Shown: one piece after another, positions 27,720-57,315 of the stretch
Numbering within the stretch: the first letter of the stretch is position 1
How the letters are laid out: each line of letters starts with the position of its first letter
Origin: Hyphomonadaceae bacterium
GTDB taxonomy: Bacteria > Pseudomonadota > Alphaproteobacteria > Caulobacterales > Aquidulcibacteraceae
Assembly: GCA_023384105.1 (NCBI GenBank)
Contig: JAHDXR010000006.1
Span: forward strand, 62,001-126,000
DNA length: 64,000 nt
Reading direction: 5' to 3'
The notes under the pieces: generated by a model
Told to the model about the DNA's origin: nothing
The model's database searches: none
What the model saw: only the letters and a program-made list of their open reading frames with translations
Translations under genes and position numbers: made by a program

Positions 27720-27748
27720 GATGTGGCGGACACGCTCCCCGGACGCAG

Positions 27749-27820
27749 CCCCGGCGAAAGCCGGGGTGCGAGCCGGGGCCCAGGGGGTGACGCGCTGCGT
27801 TTGCCCCTGGGTCCCGGCTC
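27749..27820. repeat. Repeat D: nested palindromes
   Basis: A hairpin CCCCGGC-GAAA-GCCGGGG (27749-27766) with a GNRA loop is followed by a 17-base inverted repeat GAGCCGGGGCCCAGGGG (27770-27786) and its partner (27804-27820) differing at one position (G/T). No T tract. Resembles, but is distinct from, family B. Confidence 0.8.
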
Positions 27821-27916
27821 TCCGCGTCGTTACGGCCGGGAAGCGTGCGGGGGCGCCAGCGCTGCTCCTGTGCCGCCGGTCACATCGGGGTGGGGATCCT
27901 CCGGATAGGTTTCCTG

Positions 27917-29710: not shown

Positions 29711-29812
29711 GAGTCATTCCGGGCGCGCGGAGCGCGATCCGGAACCCAGGGCCAACGAAGCGCCGCTCGCCCTGGGTTCCGGGTCTTCGCTTCGCTTCGC
29801 CCGGAATGACTC
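29711..29812. repeat. Repeat B, copy 1 (nested inverted repeat)
   Basis: Outer arms GAGTCATTCCGGGCG (29711-29725) and CGCCCGGAATGACTC (29798-29812), perfect over 15 bases; inner arms CCGGAACCCAGGGC (29739-29752) and GCCCTGGGTTCCGG (29769-29782), perfect over 14. Lies between pdhA and the MAPEG gene. Confidence 0.92.
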
Positions 29813-29835: not shown

Positions 29836-30234
29836 ATGAGCGTTGAACTCACGTATCTTGCGTACACGATCGCGCTGTTCTTCGTCGTCGTGACGGCGCA
29901 GGCCTATATGGGCATCGCCAATAACGGCCCGATGGCGATGGCGGGCAGCCGCGACAACCTGAAGCCGCCGACGGCGATCCAGGCGCGGATGAAGCGCCTG
30001 ACCGACAATTTCCGCGAGAACCTCTGGTTCTTCGCGCCGCTGGTGCTGATCGCGGCCGTCGCCGACATCTCCAATCAATGGACGCTGCTGGGCGCGCAGC
30101 TCTTCTTTTGGGCGCGGCTCGGCCACGCCATCTGGTACGCGTTCGGCTGGCCGATCGTGCGCCCGCTGTTCTGGTTCGCGGGCGTGGTCGCCTGCGCGCT
30201 CATCTTCCTTGCTCTGTTCGGGATTCTCGCCTGA
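29836..30234 (+). CDS. MAPEG-family membrane protein
   Basis: 132 residues with four hydrophobic segments (about 4-25, 62-78, 82-100, 108-130) and the MAPEG pattern: [13 protein letters not shown], then [21 protein letters not shown] and [15 protein letters not shown]. The family includes glutathione S-transferase- and leukotriene-synthase-like enzymes; here no substrate can be assigned. Its TGA shares an A with the pdhB ATG (TGATG), so it is translated with pdhB although it has no known role in pyruvate oxidation. Confidence 0.85.
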
Positions 30235-31622
30235 TGACGCAAATCCTCATGCCCGCGCTCTCGCCGACGATGGAGGAGGGCAATCTGGCCAAGTGGCTGA
30301 TCAAGCCCGGCGACAGGATCGAGCCCGGCCAGGTGATCGCCGAGATCGAGACCGACAAGGCGACGATGGAAGTCGAAGCCGTGGACGAGGGCACGGTGAC
30401 GGAGCTGCTGGTCGAAGAGGGCGCGCAGGGCGTGAAGGTGAACACGCCGATCGCGGTGCTGGATGGGGAAGGCGGGGCGGCCGCGCCGACTCCTCCCCCG
30501 CCGGCGGGGGAGGTCCGAGCGAAGCGAGGGGAGGCGGACGTGCAGGCGCGCCCCCTCAGTCAGCCCGCTGCCCGGCCCGACAGCGCCCCCGCGCGCGGGG
30601 GAGCATCGATCGCCGAGCCCGAAGTCCCCGCCGGCGCGCAGATGGTGAAGATCACCGTGCGCGATGCGCTGCGCGATGCGATGGCCGAGGAGATGCGCCG
30701 CGATCCGGGCGTGTTCCTGATGGGCGAGGAGGTGGCGCAGTATCAGGGCGCGTACAAGGTCTCGCGCGGACTGTTGGACGAGTTCGGGCCCGAGCGCGTG
30801 GTGGACACCCCGATCACCGAGCACGGCTTCGCCGGCCTCGGCGTCGGCGCGGCGATGGCGGGCCTGAAGCCCATCGTCGAGTTCATGACCTGGAATTTCG
30901 CCATGCAGGCGATCGACCAGATCGTCAACTCGGCGGCGAAGACGCTCTACATGTCCGGCGGCCAGATCAAATCGAGCATCGTCTTCCGCGGCCCCAACGG
31001 CGCGGCCGCGCGCGTGGCCGCGCAGCACAGCCAGGACTATTCGTCGTGGTATTCGCACATTCCCGGCCTCATCGTGATCGCGCCCTACGATGCGGCGGAC
31101 GCCAAGGGCCTGCTCAAGGCCGCGATCCGCAATCCGAACCCGGTCGTCTTCCTCGAACATGAGATGCTCTACGGCGCCGAGTTCGAGATTCCGGACGTGC
31201 AGGACTGGATCGTCCCGATCGGCAAGGCGAAGGTCCGCCGCGAAGGCGGCGACGTCACCATCACCGCGCATTCGCGCATGGTGGGCCTCGCGCTCAAGGC
31301 CGCAGAACAGCTGGCCGAGCAGGGCGTCGACGCCGAAGTGATCGACCTGCGCACGCTGCGCCCGCTCGATACGGATACGATCGTCGACAGCGTGAAGAAG
31401 ACCAACCGCATCGTCACGGTGGAGGAGGGCTGGGGCCAGAACGGCGTCGGCGCCGAAGTGGCGGCGCGCGTGGTGGAGGCGGCGTTCGATTATCTCGACG
31501 CGCCGCCGGCGCGCGTGCATCAGGTCGACGCGCCGCTGGCGTACGCGGCGAACCTCGAAGCGCTTGCGCTGCCGAGCGTGGAGAAGATCGTCGATGCGGT
31601 GAAGGCGGCGACGTATCGATGA
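30234..31622 (+). CDS. pdhB: Pyruvate dehydrogenase E1 beta subunit with N-terminal lipoyl domain
   Basis: 462 residues. Residues 1-78 form a biotinyl/lipoyl domain with the lipoylated Lys42 in [15 protein letters not shown]; residues 137-462 are the E1-beta transketolase-like part ([50 protein letters not shown]). A lipoyl domain on E1-beta is characteristic of alphaproteobacteria. Odd: the linker at residues 87-124 is encoded by a copy of palindromic repeat A (30492-30604), giving Pro/Arg-rich sequence. The start overlaps the MAPEG stop. The lipoyl domain is nearly identical at DNA level to that of pdhC. Confidence 0.97.
30492..30604 (+). repeat. Repeat A inside the pdhB coding sequence
   Basis: First hairpin: perfect 22-base palindrome at 30492-30513 (CCTCCCCCGCC and its complement). 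Then an AGCGAAGCGAGGGGAGG spacer, CTCAGTCAGC at 30555-30564, CGACAGC, and a second palindrome CCCCCGCGCGCGGGGG at 30586-30601. Same order of parts as the copies at 32858 and (reversed) 40914. Read in frame it encodes [14 protein letters not shown] and following linker residues. Confidence 0.85.
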
Positions 31623-32127: not shown

Positions 32128-32597
32128 GCGAAGGCGAAGTGGTCGAGCAGCTGGTCGAGTTCATCAACATCCTGATGGTGGGCGTTTCGCTCATTTTCTC
32201 CATCGTCTCGGCCTATGTCGTGGCGCTCAATTATTTCATCGGTTCGACCAACTTCCTGGCACGGTTCGGCAGCTTCGCCTTCGTCACCCTGATCCTCGCC
32301 ATGCTGATGGTGGTGCTGATGGGCGCCGCCGCCACGCACGCGGGCCTGATCCAGCGCCTTGCCGAACTCGAAGCCGCCGGCCAGCTCACCGCCCCCGGCC
32401 GCGCCGTGCTGGCGAACGCGACGCCCGAATGGGCCGGCGCGCTCACCGGCCATCGCTACAGCATCGACGAGATCGTGCGCCTGTGCGTTTGGGGCGGCCT
32501 CGGCTTCACCTATCTCGCGCTCGCCTATCTCACCTTCCTGCACCGCTGGACGCCCGACGCGATCCCGGTTTCGATCGAACAAAGGCCACGCCAATGA
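32124..32597 (+). CDS. Small membrane protein, function unknown
   Basis: 157 residues with three or four hydrophobic segments: about 12-38 ([20 protein letters not shown]), 50-72 ([19 protein letters not shown]) and 122-140 ([19 protein letters not shown]). No recognisable domain. It overlaps the GFA gene by 4 bases at its start and pdhC by 4 bases at its end, so it is co-translated with pdhC; a structural or regulatory link to the complex is possible but unsupported. Confidence 0.65.
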
Positions 32598-33952
32598 CCG
32601 ACATCACCATGCCCGCGCTCTCGCCGACGATGGAGGAGGGCAATCTCGCCAAGTGGCACGTGAAGCCGGGCGACGCGATCGAGCCCGGCCAGGTGATCGC
32701 CGAGATCGAGACCGACAAGGCGACGATGGAGGTCGAGGCCGTCGACGAAGGCGTGATCGAGGCGCTGCTGGTCGAGGAAGGCGCGCAAGGGGTGAAGGTC
32801 AACACGCCGATCGCGCGGCTGAAGGGGGAAGGGGCGGGCGCATCAAGCAAAGCGCCAGCCTCCTCCTCGACGGAGGAGGCGCCGCGGAGCGGCGGTGGAG
32901 GTGAAGGCGCGCCGGCGAAGGAGAAGCCTCAAGAGGCTCAGCCGCAAGCGTCGCGGGCCTCACCTCCTCAGTCAGCGCTTCGCGCCGCCAGCTCCTCCAT
33001 CGAGGAGGAGCGCGCCCGCGTCTTCGCTTCGCCGCTGGCGCGGCGTCTTGCGGAGCAGGGCGGCATCGATCTTTCGGGGCTGCAGGGCTCCGGCCCGCAC
33101 GGGCGCATCGTCAAGCGCGACATCGAGGCGGCATTGAAGGAGCCGCGCCGCGAGGCGCCGCCGCAGCGCGCGGAGTCGCGCGAGATCGCGACGGGACGCG
33201 AAGCGCGCGGCGAAGCGCCTGCGCTGGCGCGGCGGTCGCTCGAACAGATGGGCGTCCGGCCGGGCAGCTACGATCTCGTGCCGCTCGACATGATGCGCAA
33301 GACCATCGCCAAGCGGATGACGGAGAGCTTCCGCGACGTGCCGCACTTTCCGCTGACGATCGACATCGAAATCGACGCGCTCCTCAAGGCGCGCGGCGAG
33401 ATCAACAAGCGCTTCGCCGACAACGGCGTGAAGATCTCGGTCAACGACATGTGCATCAAGGCGGCGGCGCTGGCGCTGAAGCTCGTGCCGGAAGCCAATG
33501 CAAGCTACACGCCCGACGGCGTCGCCATGCACCATCACGCCGACATCGGCGTCGCCGTGGCCATTCCGCACGGCCTGATCACGCCGATCGTGTGGCAAGC
33601 CGAGACCAAGGGCTTGGCGCAGATCAGCGCCGAGATGGCCGACCTCGCCCAGCGCGCGCGCGAACGCAAGCTGAAGCCGGAGGAATTCCAGGGCGGCACG
33701 TTCACGATCTCGAACATGGGCATGCTCGGCATCAAGAGCTTCGCCTCGATCATCAACGAGCCGCACGGCATGATCATGTCGATCGGCGCCGGCGAAAAGC
33801 GCCCGATCGTGAAGAACGACGTGCTCGCCATCGCCACGATGATGACCGTGACCGTGACCTGCGATCACCGCGTCGTCGACGGCGCGCTGGGCGCGGCGTT
33901 CCTCAAGGCGTTCCGGAGCTTCCTGGAAGATCCGATGGCGATGCTGCTCTAG
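32594..33952 (+). CDS. pdhC: Dihydrolipoamide acetyltransferase (E2 of pyruvate dehydrogenase)
   Basis: 452-residue core of the pyruvate dehydrogenase complex, passing the acetyl group from lipoamide to CoA. Lipoyl domain 1-78 with Lys42; peripheral subunit-binding domain about 143-181 ([16 protein letters not shown]...[13 protein letters not shown]); catalytic domain from about 225 with His425 and Asp429 in DHRVVDG. The linker before the binding domain (residues 89-140) is encoded by repeat A (32858-33011), in a different frame from the pdhB copy. The ATG overlaps the previous stop (ATGA). Confidence 0.97.
32858..33011 (+). repeat. Repeat A inside the pdhC coding sequence
   Basis: First hairpin GCCTCCTCC (32858-32866), loop TCGAC, GGAGGAGGC (32872-32880); then GGTGGAGGTG, CTCAGTCAGC at 32967-32976, and a second hairpin GCTCCTCC (32991-32998), loop ATCGA, GGAGGAGC (33004-33011). 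Same order as in pdhB, but CCTCC and CTCAGTCAGC are read one base out of phase relative to that copy. Confidence 0.82.
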
Positions 33953-37591: not shown

Positions 37592-37622
37592 CGCGCTTTT
37601 TGTGCGCCAGCGCAATTTAGAG

Positions 37623-37732
37623 AGTCATTCCGGGCGGAGGCGCGGCACGCGCCGTAGGCCCGGAACCCAGGGCGACCGGCGCATCGTTTGCCCTGGGTTC
37701 CGGGTCTCCGCTTCGCTTCGCCCGGAATGACT
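37623..37732. repeat. Repeat B, copy 2, upstream of the GIY-YIG gene
   Basis: Outer arms AGTCATTCCGGGCG (37623-37636) and CGCCCGGAATGACT (37719-37732); inner arms CCCGGAACCCAGGGC (37659-37673) and GCCCTGGGTTCCGGG (37690-37704). All pairs perfect. Confidence 0.92.
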
Positions 37733-37762
37733 TTCAGAGAGGCTAGCGTTATAAAACTCCGT

Positions 37763-38098
37763 ATGGCGCGCTTTGATCTCGTCGCCGTCTATCTTATGGC
37801 GAGCCAGCCCAACGGCACGCTCTATCTCGGCGTGACCAGCGATCTGCTTCAACGAGGCATCGATCATCGCGAAGGGCGCTATGAAGGCTTCGCAAAGAAA
37901 TATGGCTGCCGGACTCTGGTCTGGTGGGAGCAGTTCTACGACATCAATCAGGCCATTGCGCGCGAGAAGCAGATCAAAGGCTGGAAGCGCAAATGGAAGC
38001 TCGCGCTGATCGAGAAGGATAATCCGACTTGGCGCGATCTGTACGAGGATTTCCTGTTGCCGCCGCAGCATCGGTTGCGGGGCGATGTTGAGCTGTAG
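37763..38098 (+). CDS. GIY-YIG nuclease-family protein between two repeat B copies
   Basis: 111 residues, nearly all one GIY-YIG domain: the two signature strands AVYLMAS and GTLYLGVTSDL (residues about 8-28), the catalytic-region Arg in LLQRGIDHREG, the WWEQF segment with the metal-binding Glu, and AIAREKQIKGWKRKWKLALIE. This is the short stand-alone class related to the UvrC and homing-endonuclease nuclease domain; targets are unknown. ATG 37763 is chosen; the open frame extends back into repeat B2. GTTATAA lies just upstream, with no clear Shine-Dalgarno. A full repeat B ends 30 bases before it and a half copy starts 9 bases after its stop. Confidence 0.85.
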   Translation: MARFDLVAVYLMASQPNGTLYLGVTSDLLQRGIDHREGRYEGFAKKYGCRTLVWWEQFYDINQAIAREKQIKGWKRKWKLALIEKDNPTWRDLYEDFLLPPQHRLRGDVEL

Positions 38099-38106
38099 CG
38101 CGTGCG

Positions 38107-38147
38107 GCCCTGGGTTCCGGGTCGCGCTTCGCGCGTCCGGAATGACT
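38107..38147. repeat. Repeat B, copy 3 (right half only)
   Basis: GCCCTGGGTTCCGG (38107-38120) followed by the right outer arm ending TCCGGAATGACT (38136-38147). The left outer and inner arms are missing. Starts 9 bases after the GIY-YIG stop. Confidence 0.85.
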
Positions 38148-38154
38148 CTGGGGG

Positions 38155-57210: not shown

Positions 57211-57315
57211 GTCATTCCTGCCGGAGGCGCGTACGCGCCGTAGAGCCGGAACCCAGGGCTACGCGCACGTCGTTTGCCCTGGGTTCCGGATCGCGCTCCG
57301 CGCGTCCGGAATGAC
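57211..57315. repeat. Repeat B, copy 4
   Basis: Outer arms GTCATTCCTGCCGGA.../...TCCGGAATGAC (57211 and 57315 ends), inner arms CCGGAACCCAGGGC (57246-57259) and GCCCTGGGTTCCGG (57276-57289) perfect. Between the LD-carboxypeptidase and mazG stops. Confidence 0.9.

Follow-up and report, generated by a model that had tools for sequence, protein, structure and literature searches.

The window analysed here, a stretch of 64,000 nucleotides within a Hyphomonadaceae assembly of 3.67 Mb in 28 contigs, contains a small stand-alone GIY-YIG nuclease gene set among copies of a palindromic repeat, termed repeat B (Table 1). A complete copy of the repeat ends 31 bases before the ATG of the gene, and a right half-repeat begins 8 bases after its stop, bringing the content of the window to three complete dimers and one single arm. 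The preliminary description, made from the sequence alone, had placed a 111-codon GIY-YIG gene between a complete repeat B and the right half of a second copy, and had noted that the other two copies in the window have no nuclease; both statements held. A further solo dimer belongs to a second palindrome type, and resembles the palindrome lying 3' of L001, the other nuclease of the same genome.

Table 1. Nuclease gene and palindromic features of the window (positions counted from its first base)
Feature	Position	Strand	Evidence and remarks
Stand-alone GIY-YIG nuclease gene, 111 codons	37763..38098	+	ORF; PF01541; AlphaFold2 model; dN/dS
Complete repeat B 5' of the nuclease gene, CGTC-type REP dimer	37624..37731	.	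Left arm from 37624, right arm to 37731; DNA fold z -8.3
Single right REP arm 3' of the nuclease gene	38107..38146	-	Fold z -2.65
Solo repeat B dimer without nuclease	29713..29810	.	Sequence, DNA fold, site comparison
Solo repeat B dimer without nuclease	57211..57315	.	Sequence, DNA fold, site comparison
Solo dimer, second palindrome type	27734..27845	.	Right arm matches the GCTTCCCGG type; left arm variant GCTCCCCGG

The 111-residue product is a single-domain protein whose only Pfam match is PF01541 (GIY-YIG; E 4e-13). It meets the definition of the GIY-YIG superfamily, namely the GIY...YIG motifs with a conserved Arg and Glu, and the residues Y10, G18, Y21, G23, R31 and E68 are invariant in all 24 homologue rows. 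The invariant residues of GIY-YIG enzymes are known for their catalytic roles. An AlphaFold2 model (mean pLDDT 87) shows no extra DNA-binding domain within the 111 residues. By sequence, the best solved match is the UPF0213 protein 1zg2 (E 8e-8), which also comes first by fold in Foldseek, followed by Slx1 and UvrC entries, with a best E of 3e-3 and none below 1e-3. The window protein matches no NCBIfam family, and among the 24 homologues, five show weak similarity to TIGR01453 (group I intron endonuclease). Comparison with a single ortholog, that of genome G039, gives a dN/dS of 0.085 at a dS of 0.82, demonstrating purifying selection on the protein in this one pair. A sigma-70 promoter driving the gene was considered and rejected, with none detected between 37550 and 38250.

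Repeat B consists of two arms arranged head to head: the first, GTCATTCC-hairpin-GGAACCCAGG, is separated by about 16 nt from its inverse. The signature GTCATTCC ... GGAA is present in all seven arms of the window, with A or C preceding GTC. Allowing up to one mismatch, CCGGAATGAC matches 17 times in the window against 5.3 expected, a number reached by 0 of 100 shuffles, and the pattern TTCCGGN{2,32}CCGGAATGAC matches 37 and 39 times on the two strands genome-wide, with no match for the reversed control. Folded as single strands of DNA, the three complete copies give z-scores of -8.3, -8.8 and -8.1. Also in the window is a direct repeat of 244 nt (30234-30477 and 32594-32837), its copies 86% identical and 2.36 kb apart.

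These features resemble those of the CGTC-tagged REPs surveyed by Di Nocera et al. 2013 (PMC3733652) in five phyla, mostly in Alphaproteobacteria, with members that include dRS3 of Neisseria and RPE-4/RPE-6 of Rickettsia. Such REPs carry a CGTC tag, changed in many to TGTC or CCTC, a stem beginning with AT pairs and a CCA-like tail, and occur predominantly as head-to-head dimers; they "apparently lack a dedicated transposase", and that survey associates no enzyme with them. Repeat B, likewise alphaproteobacterial, meets the criteria of tag and AT-starting stem (GTCATTCC) and of CCA-like tail (GGAACCCAGG) and head-to-head dimer. It does not meet the criterion of stems of 8-9 bp and loops of 4-5 bases, its inner hairpins being longer, and it can be regarded as a variant CGTC REP because the same survey allows other loops in some species. 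Repeat B is thus a two-armed REP element of the CGTC-tagged superfamily, save for its longer hairpins and the A or C before GTC.

The association between nuclease and REPs extends well beyond this locus. A collection scan retrieved 24 homologue loci whose record titles name Alphaproteobacteria, Verrucomicrobia, Patescibacteria-type groups, Flavobacteriaceae and others; many of these have REP-like arms on one side or on both. We measured the inverted similarity between upstream and downstream flanks against other positions of the same locus, coding sequence included. In a first test, 16 of 25 loci (the 24 homologues and the window) gave p<0.05. A family profile scan then supplied 55 matches, 50 of them strong, of which 49 entered the flank and label analyses and all 50 a label-free clade test; one of the 49 had too short a flank, leaving 48 for the flank test. 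The 99th control percentile was exceeded by 27/48 family, 22/29 Patescibacteria and 23/29 Pseudomonadota loci, and every control by 13, 10 and 21 of them, respectively (5813, 1168 and 1145 controls); 21 of the 48 family loci failed. The Patescibacteria and Pseudomonadota loci are the best matches, at most 30 per scan, rather than a random draw, and in the former set 29 of 30 were kept (L122 was dropped as the same place as L052). Moreover, a general CGTC-REP pattern occurs 48 times within 250 bp of a family nuclease, at 22 of 50 loci, against 0.37 expected from genome-wide density; it is present in 17 of the 22 genomes from which the homologue loci come, and its reversed control matches in none of the 22. 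Plasmid homologues with nearby REP-like arms were seen in Neisseria gonorrhoeae, Sinorhizobium meliloti, Aeromonas, Sphingobium and Planktothrix, and for the homologue on a Rhizobium tumorigenes plasmid a REP-like arm was seen only about 200 bp downstream. Nuclease and REPs are therefore physically linked across phyla.

In two of the genome sets the arms also face the gene. Among Patescibacteria, the upstream arm points inward, tail first to the gene, at 20 of 29 loci (reversed at 3), and the downstream arm at 22 (again reversed at 3), with 0 of 57 control windows doing so; the arms stand at median distances of 27 and 10.5 bp from the nuclease domain, and therefore the gene fills the space between them. 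Pseudomonadota show 21 inward against 7 reversed upstream and 21 against 11 downstream, of 29 loci (controls 1/56 per arm). The 48 family loci, where the gene is often flanked by entire dimers, show no inward bias: 12 upstream arms point inward and 15 are reversed, with 11 of each downstream. Twenty of the 24 collection loci entered this analysis (L034, L037, L038 and L052 were left out), and L052 is in no orientation set because it was dropped here and L122 was dropped as the same place. The sets overlap, some loci being counted in two of them (L035/L066, L036/L064 and L050/L125).

Linkage to REPs is not a property of any GIY-YIG gene, a possibility we rejected on the basis of 40 further small GIY-YIG genes from the same family genomes, a subset of those present: 7 of the 40 passed the flank test, against 27/48 for the window type, and five of the seven (L218, L219, L221, L231 and L243, two of which look frameshifted) form one second subfamily. 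The flanks of this subfamily carry the common CTTCGACAAGCTCAG / CCTCATCCTGAGG palindromes, a different repeat family; among three plasmid relatives inspected, palindromes are present at the ends of L337 and L339 and not of L338. UvrC genes passed in 0 of 20 cases, a weak control because flanks were cut at domain ends and the downstream flank lies inside uvrC. As a side observation, L230 (G009:C8:78745-78954), a UPF0213-like gene, has the same long palindromic unit on both sides and is possibly a third pairing.

Pfam recognizes three GIY-YIG genes in the genome of the window. Two are UvrC and the window gene; the other, L001, is followed directly at its 3' end by a palindrome dimer of the second sequence type. 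The only Y1_Tnp (RAYT-like) gene of this genome, L194 (G000:C17:418767-418994), is bordered by a GGACCGCCGGCGCC-type palindrome, and both GTCATTCC and GGAATGAC are absent from the 3.2-kb L194 locus. A RAYT as the neighbour of repeat B in this genome was thus rejected, the single Y1_Tnp gene adjoining a different palindrome.

Clades of the family nuclease have distinct palindromes, such as GTCATTCCGG, GTCATCCTGG or CCTCG, CCCATCCCCGG, GCTTCCCGG, GTCATCCCGG and others, and REPs of two nuclease clades, the GTCATTCC and CCCATCCC types, occur in one genome. Labels relied on hand-chosen motifs (46 of 49 loci labelled), and the test was also repeated without labels. In the label-free form, REP flank similarity between genomes rises with nuclease similarity (rho 0.50, 1200 pairs). 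The signal persists (rho 0.46, 1168 pairs) after removal of 33 pairs sharing distant flanks, on which ground inheritance of whole sites was rejected as the source of the matching. Shuffling flanks among paralogues within the 14 genomes that have two or more nucleases never gave as high a value (0/2000, p=0.0005), and REP type therefore follows nuclease clade rather than genome. The genome of the window illustrates this pairing, its window gene lying with repeat B and L001 with the second palindrome type. Its third nuclease, L107 (G000:C2:63403-63525), is broken about 42 residues into the domain, and the break point is a CCCATTCCCGG REP dimer, the type of its own clade.

These results bear on the simplest alternative, that REPs and small selfish genes merely meet by chance in tolerant intergenic gaps. 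REPs and nuclease are indeed both intergenic and patchy, and the control positions of the flank test include coding sequence. However, the other small GIY-YIG genes, which this idea would treat alike, pass far less often than the window type, mostly through one subfamily with its own palindrome, and neither inward arms nor clade matching is predicted by it. We regard shared hot spots as all but excluded.

Nuclease and repeat are both patchily distributed. At E 1e-8 the nuclease profile hit 32 of the 60 family genomes (G055 only weakly), and at E 1e-10 it hit 143 of 239 Patescibacteria and 114 of 398 Pseudomonadota genomes, with a maximum of 10 matches in one 0.8-Mb Patescibacteria genome; the E 1e-10 scans admit weaker matches, possibly from other GIY-YIG subfamilies, as in the family. 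After subtraction of five weak or partial matches, nuclease number correlates with REP number over the 60 family genomes (rho 0.50), over the 45 that are at least 90% complete (rho 0.53) and over 20 genus genomes of the same completeness (rho 0.56), all without correction for phylogeny. Several of the 29 nuclease-free family genomes are REP-rich (G050 with 112 matches, G047 55, G045 44, G049 39 and G051 37), G047 and G051 being near-complete (99%, in 20 and 30 contigs). Such genomes may reflect loss of the enzyme with old repeats persisting, and they are equally compatible with repeats that do not need an enzyme. Some nuclease-bearing genomes, for example G006, G008 and G020, lack this one REP pattern and have other REP types at the nuclease.

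Empty sites and REARRANGEMENT were compared at the Sphingobium, Azospirillum, window and lpd/CoA-ligase sites. In Sphingobium plasmids the nuclease gene lies between fnrL and a response-regulator gene in seven records, and five records have the region without the gene; three of each were aligned, and the other two unoccupied records were inspected as sequence. In two of the five unoccupied records a single palindrome, combining the outer half of each arm, takes the position of the unit, and the other three have none; the direction of change is undetermined, and the solo palindrome could be the product of stem recombination or a site split by insertion. Between sufB and sufC, Azospirillum lipoferum 4B carries a dimer-gene-dimer unit; in three aligned relatives the sufB-sufC gap is 87 to 129 bp long and contains neither REP nor gene. 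At the window site 29713 the dimer is present in the window's own genome, G049 and G059 and absent from 14 of the 17 genomes compared. REPs and the nuclease unit are accordingly polymorphic for insertion. No target-site duplication is evident at the empty sites, whose flanks are too diverged to read one.

Orientation varies at some sites. At 57211, the dimer of G031 (locus L320) is inverted in place, scoring 170 inverted against 61 direct. At the lpd/CoA-ligase site (37592-38154) the gene is in the opposite orientation in the sister genome G039 (L171) with the order of REP arms unchanged; a single inversion was rejected as the cause, as the arm order mismatches its product. Of 22 locus pairs with shared flanks, 8 share both and 14 share one. 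The former include one flipped pair, that of the lpd/CoA-ligase site in G039, the other seven coming from two sites, and two of the latter are opposite, possibly through repeats.

Taken together, linkage, inward arms in two sets, clade matching, copy number, insertion polymorphism and selection support a unit of nuclease and REPs. Against it stand the absence of any observed cleavage or movement, the REP-rich genomes without nuclease, and the lack of inward bias in the family. On balance, and with moderate confidence, we favor a model in which the nuclease recognizes and cuts its cognate palindrome and thereby spreads both REP-gene-REP units and gene-less REPs, with cutting and movement inferred. 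REP-nuclease-REP, the gene together with its flanking palindromes, would then be a minimal mobile unit, with the small GIY-YIG enzyme putatively dedicated to its own family of CGTC-type REPs. The enzyme would recognize the cognate stem-loop, as hairpin or cruciform, and cut it; the break would be repaired by copying from another REP copy, which would spread gene-less dimers more often and the gene-bearing unit less often. The nuclease would thus do for CGTC REPs what RAYT supposedly does for GTAG REPs. Since the protein has hardly anything beyond its nuclease domain, movement would have to rest on cutting and host repair. That the palindrome is cut, that host repair does the copying and that solo REPs depend on the enzyme are all inferences. 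The model is consistent with the resemblance to Slx1 in fold, with the dimer inverted in place and with the solo-palindrome states, and none of these proves it.

The chief rival is a homing gene, in which the nuclease cuts solo palindromes and is copied in by break repair through arm homology, the REPs spreading otherwise and serving as mere landing sites. Free-standing GIY-YIG homing endonucleases are an established kind, the T4 Seg type among them. The occupied Sphingobium sites and the solo palindrome in two of five unoccupied relatives resemble filled and empty homing sites and are explained equally well by homing, REP-rich genomes without nuclease also speak for it, and clade matching is compatible with both views. 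However, the Azospirillum relatives lack gene and palindrome alike at the occupied site, and REP number tracks nuclease number, which is not required of landing sites alone; the copy-number correlation therefore favors cutting and spreading, and we consider homing unlikely.

A second rival is host service, whereby a cruciform-resolving enzyme acts in genome maintenance and the neighboring REPs regulate or terminate its own transcription. Purifying selection, the weak fold match to the branched-DNA nuclease Slx1, and the dimer inversion in G031 as a possible trace of cruciform processing speak for it. Yet patchy presence (barely half of the family genomes) and up to 10 matches in a Patescibacteria genome look mobile, as do the empty sites and the decayed copy, making this reading very unlikely.

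Returning to the cutting-and-spreading model, the preliminary description had likened the arrangement to RAYT/REP systems, with a GIY-YIG enzyme as a new feature. This likeness is supported, and the proposed role of the enzyme as mobilizer or maintainer is still inference. It had proposed that association in other genomes, nuclease numbers tracking palindrome numbers and empty sites in relatives would favor the link; the flank tests in three genome sets, the correlation over 60 genomes (phylogeny uncorrected) and the occupied and empty Sphingobium and Azospirillum plasmid sites all do so. It had also held that abundance of repeat B without the nuclease would count against the link, and this is partly met by several of the 29 nuclease-free genomes. 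That REP types match nuclease clades within genomes goes beyond what was claimed, and L001, with its palindrome of the second sequence type, is an addition.

A bolder reading is that stand-alone GIY-YIG nucleases are the enzymes of an unrecognized class of mobile element, at least two subfamilies having their own palindrome ends and each clade reading its own stem. On this view, CGTC-type REPs across many phyla, among them dRS3, derive from such elements but lack the gene, and they spread through copying that the nuclease provokes. We put this forward tentatively, as the evidence falls a little short of making it the better bet. A cognate nuclease inside a repeat pair makes testable which enzyme spreads CGTC REPs, and a palindrome-plus-enzyme unit would explain why genes annotated merely as 'GIY-YIG nuclease family protein' recur. 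It also raises the questions of how so small a protein, some 100 residues long, selects its stem-loop from the several types present in a genome, and whether such a unit arose independently of RAYT. No link between GIY-YIG and REPs was found in the open-access literature searched at title and abstract level (preprints and most subscription journals were outside the search), and 'GIY' is absent from passages of PMC6006769. We regard the arrangement as a variation on the known theme of REPs with an enzyme, here one unrelated to RAYT, an earlier report elsewhere not being excluded.

Among known systems, the nearest solved relatives of the nuclease are UPF0213 (BH0048, PDB 1zg2) and Slx1. UPF0213-like genes of the same genomes, unlike the window nuclease, are mostly without flanking REPs, and Slx1 is a larger protein that works with Slx4. 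Free-standing homing endonucleases of the Seg type are likewise small mobile GIY-YIG genes that occupy or leave a site; here, by contrast, no intron or host gene is interrupted, and the ends are palindromes that also exist as many gene-less copies. A further parallel to the CGTC-tagged REPs, which include dRS3, is that the Neisseria gonorrhoeae homologue of the window nuclease also lies among CGTCATTCCCG repeats. With regard to RAYT/REP systems (REPtrons, REPINs), the criterion of an enzyme gene flanked by dispersed REPs is met, whereas those of a Y1/HUH enzyme and a GTAG tag are not: the RAYT is a Y1/HUH tyrosine transposase and the enzyme here is a GIY-YIG nuclease, with a CGTC-type tag and cleavage only inferred. 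Both systems nonetheless share a small enzyme gene bordered by REPs of a dispersed family, many solo REPs that are largely inverted pairs, patchy presence, and distinct REP types matched to distinct enzymes.
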